IMG/VR virus record: IMGVR_UViG_3300010354_000607
Span: 1-24,847 of that record
Reading direction: 5' to 3' (one strand)
Length of the DNA: 24,847 bases
DNA from: a virus
In this document: one piece after another, positions 2 through 20,804 of the stretch
Layout of the letters: each line of letters starts with the position of its first letter
How positions within the stretch are numbered: the stretch's first letter is position 1
Translations under genes and position numbers: made by a program
The notes under the pieces: generated by a model
Told to the model about the DNA's origin: nothing
What the model saw: only the letters and a program-made list of their open reading frames with translations
The model's database searches: none

Positions 2-2980
2 GAGGTAAATGACACATTAGCAATTAAAGCAGGCGTTGGAATTGCTATTACACAAAATTCTAGTAATGAATTAGAAATTTATGCTTCGGGCGGAGCAGGC
101 ACACAAAATACATTTGCCTCTGTTAATGAAATTAGCGCGTTATACCCAAACGAGAATTTAGATATTGTTGGTGAAAATGGAATAACTGTTGAAACACAAC
201 AAGATCAAACTTTTGAAATAGGCCAACCTTTTAGCACACAAGTTTCTATTCATGCACCAAATAGTTTTGGTGTTTTTGAATTTACAACAGATAATACTGA
301 TCAAGAACAATTTACAATAGAATCTGCAACATCAAATAGTACATTTGTATTTAATGCAGGTGTTGGAATTCGATTTGACAGAGACACAAACGATGTCGTC
401 ACAATTACTGCAACAGGCGATGCCCAACCAGCAAATCGCAGTGTAGATAATGCACAGTTAGCATTGATGACTGCAAACTCAGTAAAGGTAAGTAATGCAT
501 TTGGAGAACCAACTAATTTACAGATTCCAGATGAAGGTATTATAGGTCGTTTTAGAGATGATTATAATAATTTAAGTAATATAATTTCTTTAACACCAAG
601 CGATATAAGAAAATTAATAGATGCTGCAGATGAAGGAACTTTAGAAGAAAATCAAAATGCATTTTCTGCTGTAGAAGTTGAATACAATTCAAATGTAAAT
701 CTAATAGAAGCCACACAAAAAACAGATACGATCAGATTCAAAGCGGGAACTGGTATAGTTTTACAAGGCGAAGAACAAACTGATGGCGATAAAATTGTAA
801 CAGTATCTCTAAACAGTGCATATTTTACATCATATGTCTCTGGATTTACAACTGTTCATTTACCAGATCATACATTTACTTCTGGTACAACTGGCTCAAT
901 CTTAACTTTCTCTGAAACTTCTACAATTTTACCACATACAGTAAATACAAACAACACTGATGTCGGTTTTAATATTAAACCATCCTCCATAACAAATTAT
1001 TATATGGCAGATATGCCTTTTAATAGTATTAAAGGCAACAATGATAATACAGATGGTAGTGTAACGGATATTGAAATACAAGAAAATAATTTATTCGGTA
1101 GACCAACTGGTGGATTTATAAAATCATTAACTGGTGCAGAAGCAAGAACTATATTAGGACTAACTTCAAGTGTTTATTATAAATCTGCATCAATTAATTA
1201 TAGTGGAATTACTACACAATTACCAGCAACTACTGGAAACGAAACTCTTAAATTTGTTGCAGGAACAAACATCCAATTAAGCACAAATGCAGCAAATCAA
1301 ATAGTAATTTCTGCACAAGGCGGAACCCAACAATATGGAGTAAAAGAAGTAAGAATCAATAATGAGTCTTCATCATTTCCAAATGTTCTTTCTATATCAT
1401 CACCAACTTTAGTAGGAAGCACAACATATAAAAATATAGCGTTGTCTAAGACTTACGATTCTCTAACCAATACTTATTCTTTAAGTATTGATTTAGGTGC
1501 AATGCCTGCAAATTCTGTAAAAATTGCATCAACAACTCTAAAGGACAGTGTTGCTGGAAATTATTTGCCCACAAATCTAGTATTAGGCACTAATTCAGTT
1601 GTTGGTAGATTCGGCGGAAACGTTACATCAATTCCATTAAATCTATTAACAGGATTTTTAGGAATTAAAACATTCAATAAAATTGAATTTGATAATGTTG
1701 TAACACCAACACCATCGTCTTCATCAAGCACAAGTTCTTCATCCGGAGCATTGAGTTCTTCCTCTGGTGCACTGAGCAGTTCATCTTCTGGAGGAACTTC
1801 ATCTTCATCTGCTGCTGCTCTTGTTGCAAATAGCGGTTCAACCACTGCTCAAACACTGAATAGCAAATTCAAGTTAATAGGCACTAAGGGAGTTGTAATA
1901 ACTGGTACAAATTTAGATGGTATCTATGGGACACCAACCTTCACATTTAGTGCTGAAATGGATAGTTTATTTGCAGATAAGACACCAAAATTAGGTGGAA
2001 ATTTAGATATGAATGGATACGCAATAGTATCAAATTCTTCTCTATATTTTAAGAACAATTCAAAAAATGCTATTACAATAAATGGTAATACTGGTTACAA
2101 TACAACACTTAATTTAACTGCAGGTGTAGATTATTCTGAAATAAGCGTAAGTAAATTTGCTGGATTTACTACTGTTGGCAATTTAAAATTAACTCCTGCA
2201 GGAAGCAGTTCAGTAATTATTACGAATGGTAAATTAACATCGGATACTTCTGATATGTCAATCACTGCTAATGATAGAATAATCATTGCTTCTAGAAATG
2301 GCAGCACGGCAAGAATAAGCACATCACAAAACATGGTTATGACTTCTCTGTATTCTATAGGGTTTAAGATAGATTCGGTTCTGTCTTCTGGTATAAACGA
2401 TTTGGCCATAACCAAACCCGCCGCAGATGAAGTTATGTTATCTTCTTACAATAATTTAAATTTAGTATTTGCAGCAAATACGACAGGCGGAGTTTCTGAT
2501 AAAAACATAATTTTTAAAGGAAATGTAAAATTTGATGTAAATTACAATATAATATCGGATGTAAATATTGTTGGCACATTAAAATTGAAAACAGATCCAG
2601 AAGCAAGTTTACCAACAGTTGTTGGAGAAGCCCTTCTAAATAGAGGCGGTGTACTAACTCCAGTAAATACAACTAGCTATGTAATAGATTCTTTCAACAC
2701 TGCATATACTGGTTTAGTGTACAATGTGGTAATTACAGACAATTCAAATAATACAATTAAAAAATTATATACAATTAAAATATTAAATAGCGGAACAGGT
2801 GATATGCAAATTTTAACAACAAACGATCTATCATCTATACCAGCAAAAAATAATATAGAAATTAATAGATTATCATTTGCTTGCATATATACTAGTGGAA
2901 TAGGGTCAGTTCTGACTCTAGAAAATATTACACTAGGCAAACGATATTCAGTGAGTTTCTCTAAAGTCTCATTTAATTAA
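2..2980 (+). CDS. Modular tail-fibre-like structural protein, 5' end outside window
   Basis: The reading frame is open from base 2 through the first ATG at 464 to the stop at 2980, so the gene begins before the window and at least 992 residues are visible. The protein is built of recurring fibre modules. Four copies follow the pattern AGxGI-x-n-NxIxIxAxG (around bases 32-90, 355-415, 740-810 and 1258-1320). Three copies follow (I/F/V)GR-x-n-LT-x-n-LG (around 535-615, 1092-1163 and 1600-1665). A TPKLGGNLDMNGY motif follows near 1982-2020. A poly-Ser/Ala/Gly linker splits it at 1715-1810. Such modules are common in tail fibres of marine T4-like phages, and receptor binding is inferred only. It lies 10 nt upstream of the next gene. 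No enzymatic motif is seen. Confidence 0.75.
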   Translation, partial: EVNDTLAIKAGVGIAITQNSSNELEIYASGGAGTQNTFASVNEISALYPNENLDIVGENGITVETQQDQTFEIGQPFSTQVSIHAPNSFGVFEFTTDNTDQEQFTIESATSNSTFVFNAGVGIRFDRDTNDVVTITATGDAQPANRSVDNAQLALMTANSVKVSNAFGEPTNLQIPDEGIIGRFRDDYNNLSNIISLTPSDIRKLIDAADEGTLEENQNAFSAVEVEYNSNVNLIEATQKTDTIRFKAGTGIVLQGEEQTDGDKIVTVSLNSAYFTSYVSGFTTVHLPDHTFTSGTTGSILTFSETSTILPHTVNTNNTDVGFNIKPSSITNYYMADMPFNSIKGNNDNTDGSVTDIEIQENNLFGRPTGGFIKSLTGAEARTILGLTSSVYYKSASINYSGITTQLPATTGNETLKFVAGTNIQLSTNAANQIVISAQGGTQQYGVKEVRINNESSSFPNVLSISSPTLVGSTTYKNIALSKTYDSLTNTYSLSIDLGAMPANSVKIASTTLKDSVAGNYLPTNLVLGTNSVVGRFGGNVTSIPLNLLTGFLGIKTFNKIEFDNVVTPTPSSSSSTSSSSGALSSSSGALSSSSSGGTSSSSAAALVANSGSTTAQTLNSKFKLIGTKGVVITGTNLDGIYGTPTFTFSAEMDSLFADKTPKLGGNLDMNGYAIVSNSSLYFKNNSKNAITINGNTGYNTTLNLTAGVDYSEISVSKFAGFTTVGNLKLTPAGSSSVIITNGKLTSDTSDMSITANDRIIIASRNGSTARISTSQNMVMTSLYSIGFKIDSVLSSGINDLAITKPAADEVMLSSYNNLNLVFAANTTGGVSDKNIIFKGNVKFDVNYNIISDVNIVGTLKLKTDPEASLPTVVGEALLNRGGVLTPVNTTSYVIDSFNTAYTGLVYNVVITDNSNNTIKKLYTIKILNSGTGDMQILTTNDLSSIPAKNNIEINRLSFACIYTSGIGSVLTLENITLGKRYSVSFSKVSFN
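1715..1810 (+). repeat. Poly-serine linker coding tract in fibre gene
   Basis: Low-complexity codons for runs of Ser broken by Thr, Gly-Ala-Leu and Gly-Gly-Thr. The tract mixes TCT, TCA, TCC, TCG, AGT and AGC codons, so the amino-acid bias rather than a simple DNA repeat seems to be selected. It separates the N-terminal module repeats from the C-terminal fibre part. Confidence 0.8.
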
Positions 2981-2990
2981 TGGAGGATAT

Positions 2991-3344
2991 ATGAAAGTTA
3001 AGTTGAGTGATGTTTATGTTTCAGTTCCAGTATTAACAAAAGTATTAGATCTGGAATTACCTGTAACAGTTTCTTATAAATTCATGAAGTTAGTAAATAA
3101 TCTAAATGAAGAATTAAAGGGAATTGAAGAACAAAGAGTAAAACTAGTAAAGAAATATAGCACAGATGACAATCCGGCTACAGTTTCTGATACTAAAAAG
3201 GAAGAATTCTTAGCAGAATTTACCAGCCTTTTAAACGAAGAAATTGGCATAAATTGGGAAAAATTAACTCTAGAGAAGTTAGGCGATAGTCTAAAACTCA
3301 GCCCCAATGAATTAAATAAAGTATCTTATCTGTTTTCTGAATAA
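2991..3344 (+). CDS. Small protein of unknown function upstream of gp13
   Basis: A 117-residue soluble protein with no signal peptide or membrane segment. The start is supported by a GGAGGA Shine-Dalgarno directly before the ATG and a 10-nt gap after the fibre gene. The N-terminal part reads as a short beta or mixed segment followed by an LPVxVSYKFxKL helix. A charged coiled-coil-like stretch with an EExRVKLVKKY motif follows (about residues 35-57), then a Glu/Leu-rich C-terminal half ending in a LTLEKLGDxLKLSP-type motif. This layout resembles a family of about 120-150-aa phage proteins of unknown role, some labelled DUF1617-like. That link is from memory and not tested. No function is assigned. 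It probably belongs to the fibre gene's transcript. Confidence 0.75.
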   Translation: MKVKLSDVYVSVPVLTKVLDLELPVTVSYKFMKLVNNLNEELKGIEEQRVKLVKKYSTDDNPATVSDTKKEEFLAEFTSLLNEEIGINWEKLTLEKLGDSLKLSPNELNKVSYLFSE

Positions 3345-3389
3345 ATTTAAATCTCCTTATATATAAATATTATATAAGGAGAATTAAAT
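3345..3389 (+). promoter_or_regulatory. Long inverted repeat masking gp13 RBS and start codon
   Basis: A perfect 12-bp stem pairs 3352-3363 with 3371-3382 around a 7-nt loop. After one A-A mismatch (3351/3383) six more pairs join 3345-3350 to 3384-3389, giving 18 of 19 paired positions. The 3' arm contains the AAGGAG ribosome-binding site (3376-3381) and the first two bases of the gp13 ATG. A late promoter core lies across the apex, so RNA started there would lack the 5' arm. The pairing is read directly; the regulatory role is inferred from T4 precedents. Confidence 0.75.
3362..3369 (+). promoter_or_regulatory. T4-type late promoter core before gp13
   Basis: Exact TATAAATA, the T4 late-promoter core recognised by gp55-type sigma factors. 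It lies 26 nt before the gp13 ATG, which predicts a leader of about 13 nt. It sits in the loop and inner stem of the inverted repeat that covers the gp13 start. Confidence 0.7.
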
Positions 3390-4203
3390 GAGGCCAAACA
3401 GCAGACAAGAACTTAAAGATTACTGTCTTAGAAGGCTAGGATACCCTGTAATACAAATCAACGTAGACGATTCTCAAATTGAGGATCGCCTTGATGATGC
3501 TCTGCAATATTTTTCAGAATATCATTTTGATGGTGTAGAAAGAGTATACCTAAGAAAACAGATTACCCAAGCAGACCGAGATAGAGGGTACATCGATCTC
3601 AAAGAGCCAGTAACAGAAGATACAGCGAACAAAATAAAAGCAGCACCAGCACTAGATCCTGATGGCAGATCTATTGTTAGTGTTGTTCGCTGTTATCAGC
3701 TATTCGATACATTAGGTGGTACAGGCATGTTTGATGCTCGCTATCAAATTGCATTAAACGATTTATACGGCTTAAGAACAAATACATATAGCGATAGTTT
3801 AATCTCCTATGATTTAACTCGTAGACACATGCAGATGTTACAAGATATGTTAACTCCAGAAAAATCTGTAGAATTTAGTCGTGTAACAAACAGAATTTAT
3901 GTAAACATGGATTGGAAACAACAAGTTACTCTTGGCGAGTATATGATGTTTGAGGCATATAAAATTTTAGATCCAAACATGTATACTGAAATCTATAATG
4001 ATTGGCTTCTTAAAAAATATTGTACGGCAATAATTAAATTTCAATGGGGACAGAACCTTTCAAAATATGCAGGTGTGGCTTTACCCGGAGGAGTAACTAT
4101 GGATGCTAGTACAATTATGACAGAAGCTCGCCAAGAAATGCAACAAATAGAAGAACAAATTCAAAGCAAATACGAACTACCTCCAAACTTTATGGTAGGA
4201 TAA
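3388..4203 (+). CDS. 13: Neck / head completion protein gp13
   Basis: A 271-residue protein recognised as the T4 gp13 family, which with gp14 closes the packaged head and forms the neck for tail joining. The N-terminal block is typical: RQELKDYCLRRLG, then NVDDSQIEDRLDDALQYF and FDGVERVYL (about residues 5-55). An aromatic-rich middle follows, and the C-terminus is a Gln/Glu-rich helix (about 245-265). T4 gp13 is somewhat longer (about 309 aa), and this shorter size suits marine T4-like phages. The AAGGAG site at 3376-3381 fits this ATG. gp14 follows 3 nt after the stop. The leader is unusual because the RBS and start lie in a long inverted repeat that also contains the late promoter. Confidence 0.9.
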   Translation: MRPNSRQELKDYCLRRLGYPVIQINVDDSQIEDRLDDALQYFSEYHFDGVERVYLRKQITQADRDRGYIDLKEPVTEDTANKIKAAPALDPDGRSIVSVVRCYQLFDTLGGTGMFDARYQIALNDLYGLRTNTYSDSLISYDLTRRHMQMLQDMLTPEKSVEFSRVTNRIYVNMDWKQQVTLGEYMMFEAYKILDPNMYTEIYNDWLLKKYCTAIIKFQWGQNLSKYAGVALPGGVTMDASTIMTEARQEMQQIEEQIQSKYELPPNFMVG

Positions 4204-10248: not shown

Positions 10249-11901
10249 ATGGCATTTAATTTTTTCGGTTTTGAATTTCGTAAACAAAAAGAAGATAAGC
10301 CGTTATCATTTGCAGCCCCATTGACCGATGATGGGGCTGCTTATATTGAGGCAGGTGGTCTTCAAGGTTATTATGTAGATCTTGATGGTTATCTTAGATC
10401 TGATTCGGATTTAATTAAAAAATACCGTGAAATGAGTTTACATGCGGATGTAGACATGGCAATTACCGGAGTTATGAATGATTTTTTAACTCCTGATGCA
10501 AGTGGCGTTTTAGTTAAATTAAATACTGATAAATTAAAGTTACCGTATCCTATACGCAAAATGATGATTGAAGAATTTCAACAAATTCTTCATTTATTAG
10601 ATTTTAATAGAAAAGGATTTGAAATAGTTCGAAGATGGTATATTGATGGTCGTCTGTATTACCATCAAATATTGCACGATGAAACTAATATGGGTTTACG
10701 AGAATTAAGACAAGTAGATCCTTTAAAAATTAAAAAGGTAAAAGAAGTAACACAAAAAACAAGATTAAACAATGTTGATATGGTTACTGATTATCAAGAG
10801 TATTATGTTTATACTCCAGTAGAAAGAACAAATTCTTATACAAATTCATACGAAACTACTCAAGGTATTCGTATTGCTCCAGATGCAATCAATTATGTGC
10901 ACTCTGGGTTATATGATTCTGTATCAAGAAGAATTGTAAGCCACTTACACAAAGCAATCAAGCCACTCAATCAATTAAGAATGATTGAAGATGCTACGGT
11001 CATTTATCGTGTCTCTAGAGCACCAGAACGCCGTGTGTTCTACATAGACGTAGGATCTTTACCAAAGGTAAAAGCAGAACAATATCTACGCGATCAAATG
11101 AATCGCTATCGTAATAAGATTGTTTACGATGCAGGCACAGGCGAAATGCGTGACGATAAAAAGCATATGTCTATGCTTGAAGATTTCTGGCTACCTCGTA
11201 GAGAAGGTGGTAAGGGAACAGAAATTTCAACACTACCCGGAGGCCAAAACTTAGGCGAGATGGCAGATGTTGAATACTTCCAAAAGAAACTTTATATGGC
11301 TCTAAATATTCCAATTACCCGCATGCAAGCGGATAATGGATTTAATATGGGCAGAGCATCAGAAATTACAAGAGATGAATTAAAATTTGCTAAATTTATC
11401 GACAGAATGAGAATTAAATTCTCTGAACTGTTTACCAACTTCTTAAAGACACAATTATTAGCAAAAGGAATAATGAATGAAGAAGATTGGAAAGAAATTG
11501 AACAAGACATTAAGGTAGAATTTTCTACAGATACTTATTTTGCTGAATCAAAACAAACAGAATTGATTAAAGAAAGAATGTCCGTTCTCAGAGAAGTTGC
11601 AGATTACTCAGGTAAATTCTTTTCGGATAAATGGATTCGTAAAAATATTCTTCGACAAACTGATGATGAAATTGAAGAAATTGATCGTGAGATTGAAGAA
11701 GAGAAGGCAATACAAACTGCAGAGATTGAAGCCCAAGCACAACAGCAACAAGCACAAGCTGCAACACAACAAGCCGCTGCAGCAGAAGCGGGTGGTGGGG
11801 GAGCCGAAGCCCCTCCACAAGAAGAAGGTGGCGGCGGGCAACAACAAGTAAGCGAACAACCAGAAACAAGAGATATTTATGATGTTAGCGACTTGTTATA
11901 A
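10249..11901 (+). CDS. 20: Portal vertex protein gp20
   Basis: A 550-residue homologue of T4 gp20 (524 aa), the dodecameric portal and initiator of prohead assembly. Recognisable blocks are KYREMSLHADVDMAITGVMND (about residues 59-79), a WYIDGRLYYH core, EDATVIYRVSRAPERRVFYIDVG (about 247-269), NKIVYDAGTG and the LPGGQNLGEMADVEYFQKKLYMALNIP region. The last 70 residues are Gln/Ala/Gly-rich and low in complexity. The ribosome-binding site is weak (GAAAG), and no late promoter core lies in the 21-nt gap after gp19, so it is probably read through from gp19. A strong hairpin lies within codons 22-31. A late promoter for the next block overlaps its stop. Confidence 0.95.
   Translation: MAFNFFGFEFRKQKEDKPLSFAAPLTDDGAAYIEAGGLQGYYVDLDGYLRSDSDLIKKYREMSLHADVDMAITGVMNDFLTPDASGVLVKLNTDKLKLPYPIRKMMIEEFQQILHLLDFNRKGFEIVRRWYIDGRLYYHQILHDETNMGLRELRQVDPLKIKKVKEVTQKTRLNNVDMVTDYQEYYVYTPVERTNSYTNSYETTQGIRIAPDAINYVHSGLYDSVSRRIVSHLHKAIKPLNQLRMIEDATVIYRVSRAPERRVFYIDVGSLPKVKAEQYLRDQMNRYRNKIVYDAGTGEMRDDKKHMSMLEDFWLPRREGGKGTEISTLPGGQNLGEMADVEYFQKKLYMALNIPITRMQADNGFNMGRASEITRDELKFAKFIDRMRIKFSELFTNFLKTQLLAKGIMNEEDWKEIEQDIKVEFSTDTYFAESKQTELIKERMSVLREVADYSGKFFSDKWIRKNILRQTDDEIEEIDREIEEEKAIQTAEIEAQAQQQQAQAATQQAAAAEAGGGGAEAPPQEEGGGGQQQVSEQPETRDIYDVSDLL
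10312..10340 (+). other. GC-rich hairpin inside the start of the portal gene
   Basis: A perfect 10-bp inverted repeat, GCAGCCCCAT at 10312-10321 and ATGGGGCTGC at 10331-10340, with a 9-nt loop. It begins 63 nt after the gp20 start codon. Seven of ten pairs are G-C in otherwise AT-rich DNA. The sequence after it is U-rich only in part, so a full terminator is unlikely. Confidence 0.6.
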
Positions 11902-11923: not shown

Positions 11924-12439
11924 ATGTCAGCAGCTTATTACGATTTTTATGCAGAACAAAATTCATCATTTGTTGTTAAAATTAACATGTTAGATAAATT
12001 TAGCAACCAAATTTGCATGAGTAAATCAAATGAAGCAAATGGTGAATATATCGATGTTCCTGCTGAGTTGGCTGCTATTGGTTATACAAGAATTTACAGT
12101 TTAGAGGGAACATTGACTGTTAGGCCATCTTTAACTGCAGGAGCATCTGGTAATGAATTATTATTTACTGGTAACGCAGGCGTAACATGCGACGGTACAA
12201 CTCCCACTTCTTCTGTAGGACAACTATATTTTAAAGCCAAAGGCGATGATCATAATTTAGTAATTTATTATCCGGACATCACAATCAGTCCGGGCACATA
12301 CTTTTATGATTTTGAAATTCGCTATTGCAAAGGATTTTATGCAACAGGCGGAACCCCAGTAACAAGAGATACTAGTGTTTCCCCAAATACATTAAGAATT
12401 TTACAAGGAAAATTTATAATTATACCAAAGGTACAATAA
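11924..12439 (+). CDS. Small beta-rich putative virion protein (BppU-N-like layout)
   Basis: A 171-residue protein, first gene of the block between gp20 and gp21, with a clear AGGAG site and its own late promoter. The N-terminus (YYDFYAEQNSSFVVKINMLD) and C-terminus (SPGTYFYDFEIRYC, then LRILQGKFIIIPKV) have the shape of baseplate or appendage N-terminal domains such as BppU-N: an opening strand pair on a polymer-like motif, then GxYxYDxE and a final GKxxIxPxV strand. This similarity is judged by pattern only. It has three Cys and no signal peptide or coiled coil. It may anchor the larger Ser-linker proteins encoded just downstream, but that is inference from order alone. Confidence 0.7.
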   Translation: MSAAYYDFYAEQNSSFVVKINMLDKFSNQICMSKSNEANGEYIDVPAELAAIGYTRIYSLEGTLTVRPSLTAGASGNELLFTGNAGVTCDGTTPTSSVGQLYFKAKGDDHNLVIYYPDITISPGTYFYDFEIRYCKGFYATGGTPVTRDTSVSPNTLRILQGKFIIIPKVQ

Positions 12440-12440
12440 T

Positions 12441-12668
12441 ATGGTTTTGACTGTTTATACTCCAAACAATTTTTCAATCAAAAATATAACAGAAAATCAT
12501 ATTGAAATTATTAATTATGGATACACTCCTTCATCTTTTCTTAAACTGTATGAAATAAATTACGACCATAAAACAAAATATCCATCAACAGCATCTTTAG
12601 TGGTAGATAACTTATCAATTTGTGATGACGCATATTCCATCAACACAACTATAGACAAATGCGGTTAA
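12441..12668 (+). CDS. 75-aa protein related to N-terminus of the next gene product
   Basis: A 75-residue protein starting one base after the previous stop, with an AAAGG site at 12427-12431. Its C-terminal part contains SICDDAYSINTTIDKC (residues 59-74). The 981-aa product encoded next has SLCDEFYSVRTEDIEC at residues 66-81, with the same 13-residue Cys spacing. A preceding LYEINYD segment also aligns loosely with VYDTDFLY of the larger protein. This suggests a duplicated small domain, free-standing here. No catalytic motif is present. It ends 6 nt before the next gene. Confidence 0.65.
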   Translation: MVLTVYTPNNFSIKNITENHIEIINYGYTPSSFLKLYEINYDHKTKYPSTASLVVDNLSICDDAYSINTTIDKCG

Positions 12669-12674
12669 TATCAA

Positions 12675-15620
12675 ATGGCATTTCAATTTTCGAAAACAAA
12701 TCTTCTATACATTGCAGGAAGAGCCCAAAGAAAAATAGAAGAAAATACTGATAAGAAAATATTAACAGTATATGATACTGATTTTTTATATACAACAACA
12801 GATCTTTCTAGAGAATTAGTAAATAAAATTGATGCAAGTTATGGTATCGTAAGAATCGAAACACAAGTGTCGTTGTGTGATGAGTTTTATTCTGTACGAA
12901 CAGAAGATATCGAATGCCAACCAGAATGTGTTTATTGTAATTGCACACAAGGATCTACTTCGTCTATAAGCACAACATGTGGGCTAGAAGCACCATACGA
13001 AATAACATGTTCGTGTTTTGATAACACTATAAATGGCTGTGAACATGTTATGACTTTAAATCTAACACAGTCTTGTTGTGATGGTGGAGGAGCAACACAA
13101 AGAACTGGGAAACCATGTTTTAAAACATTTAATTCAAACAGAAGCGGGTCTAAAACAATAACATCTCCTCCAATTTGGCATGTTCCTTTTGATAATGATA
13201 CTCAGCAAACCGTTGGTGAGTACAAAAGGCCAACTATGGTTTCTGGCGACAATCATGTTGTATCGTTTGCGCGAAAATACGAAAATTTAAATGCATTGTT
13301 AGATCCAACTACACCGGAACCATATCCAGAATTAGTTGCTTGGGGGGATAATAGTTTAAATCAAATTAACAGCGTTCCAAAACTATGTAATCCGCCACCA
13401 ACATGTAGCAGTAGCAGTGGTGAATTTTGTAGATGTACAGAAGCCGATTCTGATATACAATTTGGCCAATTTGCCGGTGGTGAACCAAAAGTTGCAATAA
13501 GCGCTGTTGGCGATTCTACATTTTTAGCACACCAAAAGAAAAGTGAACCTTCAAAATTAGTTGTAAAATCTTTTGGCAAAACACAATTTAATCATGAGTT
13601 TAATTTTAATGGCAATCCAGACAATAACATTAGAATTTCTCCAACGGAGAGCATTTCGGGAATAAAAGAAGGAAGCATTAAAGGTATAAAATCCAACGGA
13701 AGAGACACAACAATGATGATATCTTCCGATGGAAGATTTTTAATGAGTTTAAATGATGGTGCTGCTTTTAGCAGTTTACAAGATACAATATATGCAGGAA
13801 AACCTATAAAATATGATCAAACACAAGTAAAATTTGGTACAACTCAAGGATCGGTTTTAAAAATTACCTCTGGAATAAATACACAAACATTTAGTGAACT
13901 TGTTGGCACAACAAAAGATAATTTAGTTTTATCTCAATCTCCAAAAATATTAAAAAGTTCAAATACAAAACAAATAAATGGCCAAACAATTTATGATATT
14001 GATTATAATATGAATTTTGGTTCTATACAAGAACCTTTGCCGTTGGGTGGTGGTGCCGTAAACAATTTAACAAGTTTTAGAAATAAAGTTGTAGATTCTA
14101 GCGGTTCTTGGAATAAAAGCAAACAAGTATATGAAATGCAAATTTCAAAAAATAATACTATAGCCGCAATGACAACAAAGGGAGATTATCCCACTTGGCC
14201 TTCAGACAATAATCCTAGAGTTCTTGCAAATAACTCTAATGTGCTAGATTTAAATTTTCAATCTATTTTAGGGAGTGCGAGTGGTAATTCTATACCAGGA
14301 TCATCTTTTAGTAAAATAGATAATAATACTTCATTCAAAATGAGTGACTCTGGTCATTTTTGTGTATTAGTAACAAACGAAGGAAAAGCAATCGTATCTA
14401 CATTAAAAGGATTGCCCGCGAGTGCAAGTTATAATTTTAATATACCATCTGATATGGTATTTGATCCAAGATACATTACAGTAACTGATGATAGTATCAC
14501 ATTAGTAGAATCTAATTGCACATATATAGAATCAGAGTATTTAACTAGAGCATTGGTTTATTCATATGCAGATATAAAAGCAGCTGCAGCAAGTTCTTCT
14601 GTAACTTTAAACGATAAAACAGACATTGAAGACCAATTAAGAACTAGTAGTCAATATATTTTAATTATAAAACATATTTTTGGACCAACACAAAATGTTA
14701 AATTTAAAATTGGAACAAAAAAAACTGCTGGCAATTTTGAATGGCTAGAAAAAATATTAAAAGTTACTGATGCAAAAAAACACATAAAAATATATTTAAC
14801 TGCAGCAGAAGCAACTCAATTATTAAATAAAATTTCTGTTTATGCATATGCTGGAGAGGTTACAAATCCAACTGCATATAATATATTTACTTCAAAAATT
14901 GATTGCACGACATCAACATCATCGACTACCAGTTCTTCATCATCTTCCCCGTGTAGAAGAATTGATGGAAGCATTAGCAGTTCAACAAGCAGCAGTACTA
15001 GTAGTGGAGGAACCGATAGCACTTCTTCTAGTTTATCATCAACATCTAGTCCTAGTTTCAGTTCATCTAGTGATAGTTTTAGTTCATCTAGTTCTAGTAG
15101 TGCAGGTACTGGGCCACCGCTTGGATTGATGTATGTATTTGGTGCGGCTAGTGGAAAATGTATAACTGGAGATTTTACATTTAATAATACTTGTTTAAAA
15201 TGTACTACTTGGGGAATTACAGATCCCGTAGAATGTTACTCTGCGTTTATGGCTTATATTGAAACAAACCCAAAAGCTTCTATATTGAGTGAATGGGGAG
15301 AATGCAATACATGCAATACTATATGCAATACATATGAAAATGTAAACACTATAGCAAGAAGTTGCTGTAAAAATACTGAAGAAAATAATTGTGGAACGGA
15401 TAGAGTTTGTATTAGTAAAAATTATTGCAATTGGATAAATGAAGGATTTGTTGACTCAGACTGTCCACAAAATTATAAATTAATAAGTGAAAATTATAGT
15501 ATATTATCGGGAAATGAATCTTCAAATTATTATGTTAATTGTTGCCATAGTTCCGATCCAAATGAGCCATTTGGTGTTTGTGGAGAAACTTGTGGTTCTG
15601 CTGGGTGTAACCAAAGTTAA
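12675..15620 (+). CDS. Large Cys- and Ser-rich putative virion appendage protein
   Basis: A 981-residue protein. Residues 1-81 share a short domain with the preceding 75-aa product. Residues 68-147 are Cys-dense, including CVYCNC, CSC and a CC pair. Around residues 190-300 there is an RCC1-repeat-like pattern, with GDNHVVSFAR and LVAWGDNSLNQ, and later similar segments hint at a beta-propeller. A Ser/Thr linker (about residues 747-809) separates a C-terminal domain of about 165 residues with some 18 Cys. There is no signal peptide, so the Cys must survive or pair after cell lysis. There is no Shine-Dalgarno before ATG 12675, so translation probably depends on the gene before. The function is unknown; a surface structure is inferred from its linkers, late context and position. 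Confidence 0.72.
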   Translation: MAFQFSKTNLLYIAGRAQRKIEENTDKKILTVYDTDFLYTTTDLSRELVNKIDASYGIVRIETQVSLCDEFYSVRTEDIECQPECVYCNCTQGSTSSISTTCGLEAPYEITCSCFDNTINGCEHVMTLNLTQSCCDGGGATQRTGKPCFKTFNSNRSGSKTITSPPIWHVPFDNDTQQTVGEYKRPTMVSGDNHVVSFARKYENLNALLDPTTPEPYPELVAWGDNSLNQINSVPKLCNPPPTCSSSSGEFCRCTEADSDIQFGQFAGGEPKVAISAVGDSTFLAHQKKSEPSKLVVKSFGKTQFNHEFNFNGNPDNNIRISPTESISGIKEGSIKGIKSNGRDTTMMISSDGRFLMSLNDGAAFSSLQDTIYAGKPIKYDQTQVKFGTTQGSVLKITSGINTQTFSELVGTTKDNLVLSQSPKILKSSNTKQINGQTIYDIDYNMNFGSIQEPLPLGGGAVNNLTSFRNKVVDSSGSWNKSKQVYEMQISKNNTIAAMTTKGDYPTWPSDNNPRVLANNSNVLDLNFQSILGSASGNSIPGSSFSKIDNNTSFKMSDSGHFCVLVTNEGKAIVSTLKGLPASASYNFNIPSDMVFDPRYITVTDDSITLVESNCTYIESEYLTRALVYSYADIKAAAASSSVTLNDKTDIEDQLRTSSQYILIIKHIFGPTQNVKFKIGTKKTAGNFEWLEKILKVTDAKKHIKIYLTAAEATQLLNKISVYAYAGEVTNPTAYNIFTSKIDCTTSTSSTTSSSSSSPCRRIDGSISSSTSSSTSSGGTDSTSSSLSSTSSPSFSSSSDSFSSSSSSSAGTGPPLGLMYVFGAASGKCITGDFTFNNTCLKCTTWGITDPVECYSAFMAYIETNPKASILSEWGECNTCNTICNTYENVNTIARSCCKNTEENNCGTDRVCISKNYCNWINEGFVDSDCPQNYKLISENYSILSGNESSNYYVNCCHSSDPNEPFGVCGETCGSAGCNQS
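14913..15101 (+). repeat. Ser/Thr-rich linker coding tract
   Basis: About 63 codons mostly for Ser and Thr, interrupted once by PCRRIDG. Short direct repeats such as AGTTCATCTAGT recur near 15059-15094. It joins the large N-terminal part to the Cys-rich C-terminal domain of the 981-aa protein. Confidence 0.75.
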
Positions 15621-15628
15621 TATAAATA
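15621..15628 (+). promoter_or_regulatory. T4-type late promoter core before the phosphoesterase-fibre gene
   Basis: Exact TATAAATA in the base after the previous TAA stop, 29 nt before ATG 15650. The leader has AAAAGGA at 15632-15638, a rather long spacing of about 12 nt from the ATG. Confidence 0.72.
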
Positions 15629-15649: not shown

Positions 15650-18600
15650 ATGGAATATTCAATTTATAAAATAAAAGAAATACTTTGTGTGGAAGGATTT
15701 TACTCAACATCATTAGGAATGAGTACTTCATCTGTAAGCACAAGTTCTAGTAGTGGTATAAGTATTTCATCAAGTTCCTCTAGATCAAGTTCTTCAACAT
15801 CATCGGTTTCGTCTTCTAGTAGTGTTTCTTCTAGTAGTGTTTCTTCTAGTAGTGTTTCTTCTAGTAGTCCATCATTTCCTTCTGTTGCATTTTTAGGTGA
15901 TAGTGGAAATGGACCAGATTTAGTTGATGAGGTTGCCGTAGTAAATGCAATAAAAACAAAAAATCCAAATTTAGTATTTCATTTAGGAGATGCAAATTAC
16001 CAAAATTCTGATATTGTGTCTGATCTTCAATTAAAAATAAATACTAATTTTTTAAATTTATGGGGATCTACATGGTTATCTAAAATGTATATCGCATATG
16101 GTAATCACGATTTAGACAATTCTGTTGATTATGGATTGCATGTAGCAAATAATTTACCTCTGGTAAAAACAGCAATAGGAACAACAAATTTAAATACTAG
16201 AAAATTGTGTTATGATTTTGTTTTTCAGGGAATTCATTTTTTTGTTATGAATAGTGGAAATACTGCATCTGGAGATGGATTAGACTCGACCCAAGATGAC
16301 AAATTACAATGGCAAGCACAAATAGATTTTATTAGACCAAAAATAGTTGCATCTACTGCTACTTGGAAAATTTTAGTTGTACATAAAGCACCTTGGACAA
16401 ATGGAACATCACATCCATCAGTAACAACTACAAGACTTTTTGGTTCAAATTCTCATCAATCTTTAGGTATAGATTTTGTATTGAGTGCACATTCACATGT
16501 TTATGATCATATTATAAAAAATAATGTTCATTACATAGTTCAGGGATTGGGAGGAACATCTAAACACGGATTGTCTTCCACACCACAAACAGGAACAGTT
16601 ATTTCATATAATCAAAAATATGCATATACAATTTTAACAAAAACTACTGCAACTTGTTTAGACTTTACTACCTATGACGTTGATGGACAAATTATAGAAT
16701 CTTTTCAATTATGTAAAACCCCCAGTAGTTCATCTAGCAGCAGCGTTTCGTCTTCATCTAGCAGCAGCGGAGTTTGTACAACTTGTACATCTGCAGAATT
16801 TATAACAGCAGCATTTCCAACGTCAGGAACGCCAAATGGTATTAATTTTCATCTATTAGATGCAACACCCAATTATTGCACTTCTCCTACAGAATACTCT
16901 TTTACAGTTGATCCAAGTAGACCTGCAGATCCTACTGTTGGAAGATATCAAACTGGGTGTGTTGAAAAAATATTTGCATTACAAAATTGGCAAAATTTAA
17001 ATGGCTTTAAACTAAAATTTAATGGATTTGATGCAGCAGATAAAATTCATTATTATAATTATAATTTTACTACTCGTGTAGCAACACCAATAGGCACATT
17101 GGGTACAAATGATATTATAATCGGCAGTGGTCAAAATGTAGAATTGATTATAGATTATACAACAATGTCACCACCATATCCAAATGCTTTTTATATTAAT
17201 AAAAAACCTTCTGGAATAGCACCTGATACTAATCCTGTTTATAAATGTACACAATGGAAAACTGGACTAGTAGCAAATTCTTGTATTCCAAAACCATCTA
17301 GTAGTTCGTCCTCTTCTTCGTCTTCACAAGCATCTACTTCTAGCAGCATAGGAAGCACAAGCAGTTCGTCTAGTAGTGTGAGTTCTTCTAGCACATCAAG
17401 CACTATAGGAAATTCTTATTATACTTGTGCAGTTGCAGATAATCCTATTGAATGTACTGTGCTGAATTCTGGTTTATATTGTTCTGCTGCAGGAGCCTGT
17501 AATAGTTGGGAAGGGTCAGAACGCACAGTAAACAATGTTTCTGGATCCAGAACACTTGTTCATGGCTTAGAGGAAAGATTCAGTTCTTTTAGTGAAATAC
17601 GAGGAGTAATAAGGCAAGTAGCAGCAGACGTTGGCGCATGTAAAGTGCGAATTTCATTGCGCCAATGGGACGGAGATGGAAATTTAAAAACTATATTTAA
17701 AGGTTGGGAAATATCTTCTGAAAATTCTGCTAGTTCTAGTTCTAGTTCTACTTTGTACAATGAAACAGGAGGAACAGGTTCTTGTGAATATAATATAGAT
17801 TATGAACAAGATCAAACAAATGCACCATCCAGAACAGAAATAAGTTTTAATAGAACAGTAGATTCTTGTGGTTTTGCTGGTGTGGGTTCAGTAGATAGAT
17901 TTGGTTGGCAAATAGAATTTATAAATTGTAGTAATAGCGTTGTTCAATATGAGTTTGAAAATGAAGGATATTCTATCTGTTATTCTTTTTTAAGTACTTT
18001 AGCACAAGCATGTAGAGAAAGTAGTAATATTTTAGATCCAAATTATGGTGGAATGGGTGGGTATGTTGGTGCATGGGCATTTTTTAATACAGAATGTTGT
18101 GATCCAGTATCATGTACCGGCGGCACAACATTTTCTTGTAGAGGAAATGCTGGATCGGGCTTACCTCGCAGCACCTTCAATTGGGTTCAATATTGGATTG
18201 ACATCTTATGTACAGAGCCTCCAATATGTGGTGATGGTTCACTGTATGGTTGCAATAGTGTATTTGGTGGTACAGGCGATACAATGAATCCTCTGTGTAA
18301 ACCATATTTAAGAAATCATATCTGGAGACCTTTACAGCACACATTTACCGATATACTTGATATAGGTCTGTGTGAAATTGGAGCATGGCCTGTTCACCAA
18401 GGCCAAGATCTTTGTGATCCAATAATTTTAGTTTTTGATTGGGAAAGATTTTTAACATGCAGTTCAGATGGAAATATACCACAAAGAACAGAAAGAAGAG
18501 GCCCCGGAGAAGCAAATATAAAATGGCTTTGGGACACTAATCGAATTTTAGATAAAAATTTAAATCCAAGAAGCTCTTCTGCTCAACAACTATACGCAAA

Positions 18601-19132
18601 ACTCATAAACCAAGCATCTCCATATTGGGAAATGGAAACTGATTTATATCAAGAATTCAGTACTTGTGCAGCATATCAATGCTCCTTTGCATCTGGGTAT
18701 CAATCTGAAGGAATGTTTTATAATTTTTGGAAAGATCCAGATTTTAATATAAAATATTACATAACATTTGATATTAATTATTTAACCACTAGTCCACATT
18801 ATTACGATAAACTTAGATTACAACAATTTCCGTTAAATTTTAATGGAAATGGAGAAAGATGCAAATATGACAATGGATCTTACATTTCATATGCAAATAT
18901 AGAGACAAATTCAATATATTTGAATGATTTAAAGGAAAGTGGTGCAGGAAATTCTGGAGTATGTAAAAATGATTTTATATTTTATCCAAATGCTATGAAT
19001 AATATTGATACAATCAATATTGATTCTAGATGTGATATGGGGCTAGTAGTAAAACCCACATATTCATTTTTTCCTTGGGTAATGAATACATTTAGAATAA
19101 ATCCAGATTCTATTAGAATTATTGAAATTTAA
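15650..19132 (+). CDS. Ser-linker virion protein with purple-acid-phosphatase-type phosphoesterase domain
   Basis: An 1160-residue multidomain protein. After a short N-terminal segment (1-22) and a Ser tract (about 25-75), residues 78-355 form a calcineurin-like metallophosphoesterase. All five purple-acid-phosphatase-type motifs are present: GDSG (D84), GDANY (D114, Y117), GNHD (N152, H153), VVHK (H245) and AHSH (H281, H283). A dinuclear-metal phosphatase or phosphodiesterase is expected, and catalysis is plausible since no ligand is missing. Further Ser linkers at about 359-373 and 549-585 separate a Cys-containing beta-rich domain (375-547) from a large Cys-rich C-terminal half with no motif I recognise. 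It has its own late promoter. A virion surface location is inferred. Substrate is unknown: host surface phosphate esters, teichoic or lipid phosphates, or nutrient release are alternatives. Confidence 0.82.
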   Translation: MEYSIYKIKEILCVEGFYSTSLGMSTSSVSTSSSSGISISSSSSRSSSSTSSVSSSSSVSSSSVSSSSVSSSSPSFPSVAFLGDSGNGPDLVDEVAVVNAIKTKNPNLVFHLGDANYQNSDIVSDLQLKINTNFLNLWGSTWLSKMYIAYGNHDLDNSVDYGLHVANNLPLVKTAIGTTNLNTRKLCYDFVFQGIHFFVMNSGNTASGDGLDSTQDDKLQWQAQIDFIRPKIVASTATWKILVVHKAPWTNGTSHPSVTTTRLFGSNSHQSLGIDFVLSAHSHVYDHIIKNNVHYIVQGLGGTSKHGLSSTPQTGTVISYNQKYAYTILTKTTATCLDFTTYDVDGQIIESFQLCKTPSSSSSSSVSSSSSSSGVCTTCTSAEFITAAFPTSGTPNGINFHLLDATPNYCTSPTEYSFTVDPSRPADPTVGRYQTGCVEKIFALQNWQNLNGFKLKFNGFDAADKIHYYNYNFTTRVATPIGTLGTNDIIIGSGQNVELIIDYTTMSPPYPNAFYINKKPSGIAPDTNPVYKCTQWKTGLVANSCIPKPSSSSSSSSSSQASTSSSIGSTSSSSSSVSSSSTSSTIGNSYYTCAVADNPIECTVLNSGLYCSAAGACNSWEGSERTVNNVSGSRTLVHGLEERFSSFSEIRGVIRQVAADVGACKVRISLRQWDGDGNLKTIFKGWEISSENSASSSSSSTLYNETGGTGSCEYNIDYEQDQTNAPSRTEISFNRTVDSCGFAGVGSVDRFGWQIEFINCSNSVVQYEFENEGYSICYSFLSTLAQACRESSNILDPNYGGMGGYVGAWAFFNTECCDPVSCTGGTTFSCRGNAGSGLPRSTFNWVQYWIDILCTEPPICGDGSLYGCNSVFGGTGDTMNPLCKPYLRNHIWRPLQHTFTDILDIGLCEIGAWPVHQGQDLCDPIILVFDWERFLTCSSDGNIPQRTERRGPGEANIKWLWDTNRILDKNLNPRSSSAQQLYAKLINQASPYWEMETDLYQEFSTCAAYQCSFASGYQSEGMFYNFWKDPDFNIKYYITFDINYLTTSPHYYDKLRLQQFPLNFNGNGERCKYDNGSYISYANIETNSIYLNDLKESGAGNSGVCKNDFIFYPNAMNNIDTINIDSRCDMGLVVKPTYSFFPWVMNTFRINPDSIRIIEI
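15812..15868 (+). repeat. 15-bp tandem repeat in N-terminal Ser linker
   Basis: Three perfect consecutive copies of the 15-mer GTTTCTTCTAGTAGT (15824-15838, 15839-15853, 15854-15868), preceded by its last 12 bases at 15812-15823. Each unit encodes VSSSS, so gain or loss keeps the reading frame. It lies immediately before the phosphoesterase domain. Confidence 0.9.
16729..16769 (+). repeat. 17-bp direct repeat in second Ser linker
   Basis: TTCATCTAGCAGCAGCG occurs at 16729-16745 and again at 16753-16769, 7 nt apart, a period of 24 nt (8 codons). It encodes part of the SSSSSSSV linker following the phosphoesterase domain. Confidence 0.8.
17294..17404 (+). repeat. Third Ser/Thr linker coding tract
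   Basis: About 37 codons rich in Ser and Thr with Ile-Gly breaks (SIGS, TIGN). It separates the middle beta-rich domain from the Cys-rich C-terminal half of the 1160-aa protein. The DNA is low in complexity with mixed Ser codons. Confidence 0.75.
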
Positions 19133-19161: not shown

Positions 19162-19623
19162 ATGAAATACGTAAAACCATTAATTGACGGAAATTTAGAA
19201 CAATTTAAACAAAATATCGAAGCATCTCTTTATGCCAAGTTATCAGAAAAACTTGATGAAGTAAAAACAGACGTTGCTTCTGATATCTACAACGAAGGCC
19301 GTTGTGTTCCTTGTTCACAAAAGATGAATGAAGAAACAAAAAAAGATTGTGATGAAATGTATAGAGATTGCATGGAAGAAGTAGAAGCGGCTGGTGGAGA
19401 TGGTGAAACTCACGGTGGCAAAGAAAGATGCAAAGAGAAAAAAAGAAAATGTGAGCAAAAAACAGTAACAGAAGGTCGCCATGAAGATGGCGATGATTGT
19501 GGTGATAGATGCAATGAAAAAATAGATAGAAAATATGGTAATAAACAAACTCTTAATGGTGTAGATCGTAACGATGCTTATGAAAAATGTTTAAATGATT
19601 GTTATGCCCGCCATTCATATTGA
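19162..19623 (+). CDS. Putative prohead-core-like small protein with ten cysteines
   Basis: A 153-residue very hydrophilic protein. The N-terminus has the pattern EQFKQNIEASLYAKLSEKLDEVKTDVASDIY (about residues 13-43 in full; an amphipathic helix plus V/I-A-S). I associate this with small T4-like prohead core proteins of the gp67/gp68 region, and the location between gp20 and gp21 fits. The rest is charged, with ten Cys in paired spacings: CVPC, two C-x6-C units and two C-x3-C units (CGDRC, CLNDC). Such helical Cys pairs are unusual for an internal core protein and could bind metal or form disulfides. An AAAGGA site precedes the start. Alternative: an accessory protein unrelated to the core. 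Confidence 0.68.
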   Translation: MKYVKPLIDGNLEQFKQNIEASLYAKLSEKLDEVKTDVASDIYNEGRCVPCSQKMNEETKKDCDEMYRDCMEEVEAAGGDGETHGGKERCKEKKRKCEQKTVTEGRHEDGDDCGDRCNEKIDRKYGNKQTLNGVDRNDAYEKCLNDCYARHSY

Positions 19624-19631
19624 GAAATAAC

Positions 19632-20159
19632 ATGAATAAAAATATTACACAATCAATACAAAAAAATTTATACACAAAAGTTGCTCAAAAAATAGATGAA
19701 ATGCGTAAAGAAATTTCCGCATCTCTATTTGAGTTTTACACAGGTTCTCATGATACTGGAGATGCCCCAGGCGAAGTAGAACAAGATTATGAGCAAGAAA
19801 TGAAAGAGGATTGTGAAAAACACATAAAAGAAAATCACCCAAATGCAACCGCAGAAGAAAAACAAAAACTTATGGATAAATGCATGGGGCACAGCATACA
19901 AGAAGCAAAAAAACCAGCAAACAAACCAGTAAAAAAACCAAAACCACAAAAACCAGCTCCAGCACCAGAAATGGCACCAATTAGACCTGAAGCAAGACAA
20001 GATGCTTTAGATTTAATGGCAAGAATTATGCTCGGTATGGGAACTGTACGAGAAGAAAAACTTCCATCTGCAGTTTTAGCACGAAGAAAAGCAGGTGGAA
20101 TGAAAAACGCTGAAACAAAACCATTAGGGTTCAGAGGCAAACACCCAGGTAAAGGATAA
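19632..20159 (+). CDS. Second putative prohead-core-like protein with Lys/Pro linker
   Basis: A 175-residue protein. ATG 19632 is preferred to the in-frame ATG 19599, which lies inside the previous gene. Its N-terminal helix (QKNLYTKVAQKIDEMRKEIS, then ASLFE) follows the same pattern as the preceding protein, which suggests paralogy or a shared scaffold-binding module. Residues about 25-80 are acidic, with two Cys. A Lys/Pro/Ala-rich linker (about 93-120) leads to a helix RQDALDLMARIMLG and a basic Gly-rich C-terminus ending GKHPGKG. The charged, linker-rich makeup fits a scaffold component, and a basic tail could contact DNA. It ends 3 nt before gp21. Confidence 0.68.
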   Translation: MNKNITQSIQKNLYTKVAQKIDEMRKEISASLFEFYTGSHDTGDAPGEVEQDYEQEMKEDCEKHIKENHPNATAEEKQKLMDKCMGHSIQEAKKPANKPVKKPKPQKPAPAPEMAPIRPEARQDALDLMARIMLGMGTVREEKLPSAVLARRKAGGMKNAETKPLGFRGKHPGKG

Positions 20160-20162
20160 AAA

Positions 20163-20804
20163 ATGAAACTCATAACAGAACATACAACAGAAGTAAGAGT
20201 ATTAACAGAAGAAAAAGAAGGCAAGAAGCATTTCTTCATCGAAGGAATTTTCATGCAAGCAGACCAAAAAAATAAAAATGGTCGCATTTATCCATATCCA
20301 ATTTTAACAAGAGAATGTGGTAGATATGTTACTGAGTATGTTCAACAAAATCGTGCTCTAGGTGAACTAGGACACCCAGAAGGACCAACAGTAAATCTAG
20401 AAAGAGTTTCACATATTATTAAAGAATTAAATGTAAACGGTAAAGATATTGTTGGTAAAGCAAAAATTATGGAAACTCCTTACGGTAAAATTGTACAAAA
20501 TCTTATGGATGAAGGTGCAAAATTAGGCGTTTCTAGCCGTGGAATGGGATCATTAAAGGAATTCCAAGGCGTAAATATGGTACAAGAAGATTTTTCATTA
20601 GCAGCAGTAGATATTGTTGCTGATCCTTCTGCCCCAAATGCATTCGTAAATGGAATCATGGAAGGTAAAGAATGGGTGTGGGAAAATGGTATAATTAAGC
20701 CAGTAGTTATTGAAAATTACAAAAAACAAATGTTAAAAACAAGCAGTAGAAAACTTGAAGAACAAAAATTAAAGATCTTCAAGGATTTCTTATCAAAATT
20801 ATAA
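20163..20804 (+). CDS. 21: Prohead maturation protease gp21
   Basis: A 213-residue homologue of the T4 gp21 prohead protease (212 aa), a serine protease that degrades the core and trims the capsid protein before packaging. The N-terminal FFIEGIFMQADQKNKNGRIYP block, the catalytic His region GELGHPEGP (H71), the ETPYGKIVQNLMDEGAKLGVSSRGMGS region with the nucleophile Ser in SSRG (S124 or S125), and the DIVADPSAPNAFVNGI block are all intact. It starts 3 nt after the upstream core-like gene with an AAAGGA site, so it is likely co-translated with the components it will process. gp22 and gp23 follow as in T4. Confidence 0.95.
   Translation: MKLITEHTTEVRVLTEEKEGKKHFFIEGIFMQADQKNKNGRIYPYPILTRECGRYVTEYVQQNRALGELGHPEGPTVNLERVSHIIKELNVNGKDIVGKAKIMETPYGKIVQNLMDEGAKLGVSSRGMGSLKEFQGVNMVQEDFSLAAVDIVADPSAPNAFVNGIMEGKEWVWENGIIKPVVIENYKKQMLKTSSRKLEEQKLKIFKDFLSKL

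Follow-up and report, generated by a model that had tools for sequence, protein, structure and literature searches.

What is a phosphatase domain doing inside a serine-linked protein of a T4-like phage, between the genes for the portal and the prohead protease? The window analysed here is the entire IMG/VR record IMGVR_UViG_3300010354_000607 (24,847 nt) and corresponds to the T4-like late module of an uncultured phage, as recognised by profile matches and, for some names, by position and synteny. The module begins with a partial protein at the fibritin position, followed by gp13, a T4 neck protein, gp15, gp16, gp17, gp18 and gp19. The portal gp20, four genes occupying the portal-protease interval (the slot), two small genes, gp21, the scaffold gp22 and the capsid gp23 come next, and a tube-like gene, uvsY and the start of uvsW complete the order. 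The names gp13, gp19, tube-like gene, uvsY and uvsW are based only on sequence, position and synteny with sibling contigs, the others having profile matches. Among deposited phages the closest portals are those of cyanomyoviruses (53%), and the best first-round metagenomic contigs reach 54%. The protein under study has 1160 amino acids and its gene sits in this structural late module, between gp20 and gp21 (Table 1).

Table 1. Features of the slot and its borders in the window; percentages are identities to sibling contigs.
Feature	Position	Strand	Remarks
Portal gp20	10249-11901	+	phrog_213, E 3.9e-197; upstream border of slot
171-aa slot protein	11924-12439	+	blastp; family also in L212, L086, L002, L003, L014
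75-aa slot protein	12441-12668	+	Resembles N-terminus of 981-aa protein; weak, by eye and MAFFT
981-aa Cys-rich poly-Ser protein	12675-15620	+	Neighbour of 1160-aa ORF; hypervariable between siblings (39%, 32%)
T4-type late-promoter-like TATAAATA	15621-15628	+	Exact match, 29 nt 5' of 1160-aa ORF
1160-aa appendage-like protein with phosphatase domain	15650-19132	+	Open ORF, ATG; domain-less homologs in L211, L212
N-terminal segment (aa 1-18), MEYSIYKIKEILCVEGFY	15650-15703	+	Conserved in siblings
Poly-Ser linker 1 (aa 25-76)	15722-15877	+	Ser-rich stretch
Predicted PAP-type metallophosphoesterase domain (aa 78-355)	15881-16714	+	Pfam, PDB profile, model and fold search, ligands
Poly-Ser linker 2 (aa 359-375)	16724-16774	+	Ser-rich stretch
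Cys-containing middle domain (aa 376-549)	16775-17296	+	Common to L211 (49%), L212 (39%)
Poly-Ser linker 3 (aa 550-586)	17297-17407	+	Ser-rich stretch
C-terminal Cys-rich domain	17417-19129	+	Common to L211 (37%), L212 (32%); no Pfam/PHROG family
Two small genes (19162-19623; about 19632-20159)	19162-20159	+	Conserved, precede protease
Prohead protease gp21	20163-20804	+	PF03420, E 4.6e-35; phrog_207; downstream border of slot

Residues 78-355 contain, in this order, the motifs GDSG (D84), GDANY (D114, Y117), GNHD (N152, H153), LVVH (H245) and AHSH (H281, H283). The codons of the ligands start at 15899 (D84), 15989 (D114), 15998 (Y117), 16103 (N152), 16382 (H245), 16490 (H281) and 16496 (H283), and that of the second-sphere H153 at 16106. 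The sequence-only reading, made before any database search, had described five metal-ligand motifs in order and this was borne out. Motif IV is LVVH and not VxxH and motif V is AHSH and not GHxH, differences that leave the ligand histidines unaffected. The metal set of the calcineurin-like superfamily (D, D, N(H), H, HxH) is complete and all seven metal ligands of purple acid phosphatases (PAPs) are kept, including the tyrosine of GDxxY (Y117). Moreover, the domain matches PF00149 (Metallophos) with 40.8 bits (cut-off 21.5; E 4.2e-10), which places it in the superfamily.

Used as a single sequence, the domain had no match among viral and genome contigs, among deposited phages or in the PDB, and the starting point for a profile was provided by four plasmid matches. 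A profile of five sequences (the domain and its relatives) found the PAP 6git in the PDB (E 5.6e-18), and one of 13 viral sequences found purple acid phosphatases (E 1.5e-17), with the motif residues aligned in both cases. The AlphaFold2 model of the domain (pLDDT 83.3, pTM 0.87) retrieved mammalian PAPs as the best PDB folds in Foldseek (E 7e-14). Its best fold match was the pig PAP 1ute (Z 28.3, rmsd 2.6 over 254 residues), and ranks 1 to 8 were all occupied by mammalian PAPs (Z 26.8-28.3). The folds of GpdQ, Rv0805, PhoD, Mre11 and acid sphingomyelinase scored clearly lower (Z 16-22 vs 28) and were rejected. Profiles and predicted model together confirm residues 78-355 as a PAP-type dinuclear metallophosphoesterase domain, the match being far beyond chance; the structural check proposed for the domain thus came out in its favour, and the ligands of the dinuclear site are present in the sequence. 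Known PAPs, both mammalian (TRAP/uteroferrin) and plant (1ute, 2bq8, 6git, 1kbp), have the same whole-domain fold (Z 24-28), all the metal ligands and the tyrosine. However, the window domain is only about 15% identical to them, has no plant-type N-terminal domain, and lies in a different setting, between poly-Ser linkers of a phage late protein.

The poly-Ser flanks anticipated from the letters alone correspond to linkers 1 and 2, and the roughly 800 Cys-rich residues expected downstream are 785 residues, from residue 376 to the end, with 32 Cys. The short N-terminal segment is 70.6% identical to that of contig L106 over 17 aa, and its counterpart in L211 is MEYNIYKIKEILCIEGSY. Immediately 5' of the phosphatase domain, SSSSV units are encoded by a perfect tandem repeat of 15 bp (3.8 copies, 15812-15868), a possible site of recombination or slippage. 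No PHROGs family describes the full protein, and outside the phosphatase domain neither Pfam nor PHROGs recognised anything in it; the carrier matches no known virion family. Predicted without an alignment, the structure of the C-terminal region reached a pLDDT of 33. One name was tried and dropped: with the domain alone as query, an internal stretch accounts for a match to phrog_1696, a family of 2079 positions called "major tail protein" (E 3.5e-05), but the reverse search was empty in the window and positive in five bacterial control genomes.

The late promoter and the location between portal and protease that had been described for this gene were both recovered, the former as a promoter-like match. 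The motif TATAAATA occurs seven times in the window, always on the + strand and always within 60 nt of a gene start, a placement reached in none of 2000 mononucleotide shuffles of the upstream stretches. The count over the whole window was discarded as a signal, since seven is not above chance (15 of 100 shuffles); it is the placement alone that stands out.

Comparison with sibling contigs showed that the domain is not a fixed part of its carrier. The contigs L211 and L212 are close to the window in gp21 (95% and 97%) and gp23 (96% and 85%), and L106 is 99.98% identical to L212 across their overlap. Their homologs of the 1160-aa protein are shorter (845 aa in L106/L212, 868 aa in L211) and align on both sides of the domain, that is, in the N-terminal segment and from residues 374-376 to the end (34% and 39%, respectively). 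Where the window has linker, PAP and linker, a single poly-Ser linker is found in L211 and L212, and the PAP is absent. Contig L086, with 95% in gp21 and 83% in gp23, does carry a PAP domain, 48% identical to that of the window and again placed between poly-Ser linkers (residues 1470-1761), but its carrier is a 2002-aa poly-Ser protein with 64 Cys in which nothing outside the domain can be aligned with the window protein. The survey of T4-like genomes suggested for this linker-domain layout was therefore positive for L086 and negative for L211 and L212, and this pattern indicates that the domain is optional and is found in different scaffolds.

The borders of the domain coincide with the poly-Ser linkers, and both junctions lie in low-complexity repeats, which are error-prone for assemblers. 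Together with the two scaffold-sharing siblings that have no domain, this could be taken to mean that the repeats joined two unrelated fragments in an assembly chimera. Such an artefact is highly improbable because L086, a separate record, has the same linker-PAP-linker layout with a protease 95% identical and a PAP only 48% identical to those of the window; moreover, the reading frame is open across both junctions.

The slot itself is unusually large. In the 114 T4-like contigs having both genes, the portal-protease interval has a median of 823 nt, whereas that of the window spans 8.3 kb and that of L086 10.2 kb; it exceeds 3 kb in 10 of the 114, and several of these encode Cys-rich proteins without a phosphatase. 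Among the four siblings, identity is 72-97% for the core proteins and only 32-39% for the appendage proteins. As the appendage proteins diverge fast and the core is nearly invariant, the slot is probably a fast-changing host-contact locus.

The phosphatase domain is also found well outside T4-like phages. Scanning IMG/VR with profiles yielded 20 and 45 loci, and about 40 further viral loci contain relatives of the domain, many of them as C-terminal fusions on SU10-adaptor-like connector proteins. At least 19 related viral proteins have it fused to one connector-type N-terminal domain, whose two subgroups were matched to one another with a probability of 99.2%. Matches to the SU10_adaptor family (PF24175) are faint: 23.3 bits for L088, below the cut-off of 27, and E ≤0.01 in 2 of 30 members. 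Neither connector profile (A5, A6) led to a solved structure by sequence. The gene order around these fusions (capsid, small genes, adaptor-PAP, nozzle-like gene) fits the SU10 type, the capsid and nozzle names being assigned in most contigs from order and length. The SU10 adaptor forms a ring of twelve subunits that sits between portal and nozzle and bears the long tail fibres (PMC9509320). The connector-PAP fusions (L185, L186, L188, L189, L095, L096 and others) share the phage domain lineage of the window and likewise join it to a putative virion protein, but in them the domain is C-terminal to the adaptor-like domain and the gene order is another one, whereas that of the window is embedded in a poly-Ser linker belonging to a T4-like appendage protein.

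The tree places the window and L086 domains together (100/98) and joins to them that of the 304-kb contig L087 (100/97). This clade falls within a phage group (100/99) that includes the connector fusions and is separate from 24 sampled bacterial sequences; both sides were sampled by pattern scans with the same profile and the tree is hence uninformative on the origin of the lineage. The idea that this was a system peculiar to the window is not supported, since the domain is optional, occurs also in L086 and belongs to a PAP lineage that is more widely carried by phages. Other architectures were observed among the relatives. L197 encodes a 926-aa putative virion protein with the domain at its end. 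L206 (7161-9518; 786 aa) combines a connector-like domain and the phosphatase with an Ig domain similar to Hoc-type head decorations, and in L103 (6450-9380; 977 aa) the phosphatase is flanked by two similar connector-like regions.

The metal set is kept in 29 of the 30 proteins examined and the PAP tyrosine in 23 of them. The exception is the connector-PAP fusion of L088 (7986-8744), in which decay of the metal site has turned GNHD into GGND and GHxH into SGWSR, with the loss of the N, the H and both HxH residues. Catalysis is thus not required in every family member and the domain can outlive its catalytic site. This exception agrees with the view that the phage domain has a binding or structural role without catalysis, in which it would hold metal or phosphate and recognise a ligand that is phosphorylated, in the manner of GAP50. 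This Plasmodium protein is a PAP-fold anchor, and its structure (3tgh) is among the nearest folds to our model (Z 25.6). We consider this unlikely for the window, given that the ligands are complete in the window, L086 and L087 at only 48% and 40% identity to the window domain and are so widely kept in the family.

The explanation we favour, if with some reserve, is that of an exchangeable PAP module displayed on the virion by a T4-like appendage protein and acting on phosphorylated polymers of the host surface, a reading built on sequence comparison and the predicted model. The 1160-aa protein would be assembled late in infection on the exterior of the particle (head, neck or collar), and the poly-Ser linkers would form a flexible arm holding the enzyme outward. 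On approach or adsorption the domain would cleave phosphate esters of host surface polymers, such as phosphate of LPS or EPS or teichoic-type polymers. Recombination inside the repetitive linkers may allow it to be gained, lost or moved as hosts change. Late-module position and promoter-like site speak for a virion location, which is made more credible by the fusion of relatives to putative connector-type virion proteins elsewhere and by the slot evolving like a host-contact locus. Against the favoured explanation count the decayed metal site of L088 and a carrier that resembles no known virion family.

PAPs are broad phosphatases that serve phosphate supply in plants, and the portal relates the window phage to cyanophages (53%). 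An auxiliary metabolic enzyme releasing phosphate from organic phosphorus for phage production could be imagined on these grounds, and liberation of phosphate was among the functions suggested earlier. We judge it very improbable, as the domain shows no sign of being a separate enzyme, is one part of a late, Cys-rich poly-Ser protein of the structural module, and is optional between siblings; nutrient release found no support here. Of the sequence-only reading, the intact PAP-type domain between poly-Ser linkers of a late-module protein stands and the virion location gains credit, while uniqueness and phosphate supply find no support. An intracellular phosphoesterase that enters with the genome or is made late, with a target such as the nucleotide signal of a defence system, has a parallel in the mycobacteriophage calcineurin-like phosphoesterase Gp48, a five-motif superfamily metallophosphoesterase like the window domain, which helps the phage to evade host immunity (PMC12287305). 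However, the paper treats Gp48 as another kind of metallophosphoesterase and describes it neither as a virion protein nor as a structural fusion (PMC12287305), and the window domain is flanked by poly-Ser linkers within a Cys-rich late protein and has relatives fused to connector proteins. An intracellular role therefore seems improbable to us.

More tentatively, the favoured display module may be one case of a broader pattern: this PAP lineage is possibly a dedicated, exchangeable virion enzyme shared by unrelated phages (connector fusions, a jumbo-phage contig and T4-like poly-Ser appendages), with the poly-Ser linkers of the portal-protease slot acting as recombination slots for plug-in surface domains. 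If the display reading is right, some phages would show a metallophosphatase around the head or neck, a region seldom regarded as the working end, and this would suggest that phages modify surface phosphate groups prior to attachment or in its course. Siblings with the domain (two) and without it (two), on a near-identical core, offer a natural experiment on the turnover of surface enzymes through poly-Ser linkers. Moreover, many unannotated fusion proteins of uncultured phages would receive a testable name.

The absence of a T4 counterpart, noted at the outset, extends to all 50,697 deposited phage records, T4-likes included, where no match was found to the domain, the C-terminal region or the 981-aa neighbour. 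The connector-PAP fusions tried had no relative in the same records except for a weak match in one unannotated faecal phage record. Full-text literature searches found no PAP domain described in a phage structural protein, which is weak evidence of absence given their partial coverage, and two reviews of virion enzymes name no phosphatase of the PAP kind. Fold and chemistry are known; the phage-appendage context appears to be undescribed in the literature searched. The nearest described protein is ORF22 of Thermobifida phage P1312 (PMC4569894), of about 1100 aa and with a metallophosphatase domain next to another module (CBM4_9); unlike the window protein, with which it was compared by description only, it has a signal peptide and is read as secreted by its authors (PMC4569894). 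The phi29 gp12 and GDPD-type tail lysins (PMC6116005, PMC10194240) are virion enzymes which cut phosphoester bonds of a surface polymer (teichoic acid), but they belong to different enzyme families and sit in tail appendages, and so are a precedent for the way of working and not for the family. The metallophosphatases of Thermobifida phage P318, described as SbcD-like, and of staphylococcal phage K, described as cd07390, were set aside as members of other subfamilies.

Several other genes around the slot have features of their own. The partial 992-aa protein at the fibritin (wac) position (2-2980) also has poly-Ser linkers, with a repeat at 1733-1776, which makes this linker style common to several candidate appendage proteins of the window phage. 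Poly-Ser linkers are present in the 981-aa protein too; its Cys-rich C-terminal part is absent from the L211 version, and a stretch, VAWGDNSLNQI (ISWGDNSRGQT in L211), resembles an RCC1 propeller repeat, with no supporting Pfam match. Very Cys-rich slot proteins (33-57 Cys) without phosphatase and without poly-Ser are found in L002 (12173-14800), L003 (5809-8367), L014 (3971-5431), L113, L131, L139 and L164. In L086, a 569-aa version of the 171-aa slot protein (227-1936) carries about 420 residues between ends that are conserved, the second domain-sized insertion seen in the portal-protease slot. The same contig encodes, among its poly-Ser genes, a 261-aa DUF6734 protein (2809-3594; E 1e-43) with a DxD-like stretch, which may be a glycosyltransferase and, as a guess, could act on the Ser linkers.
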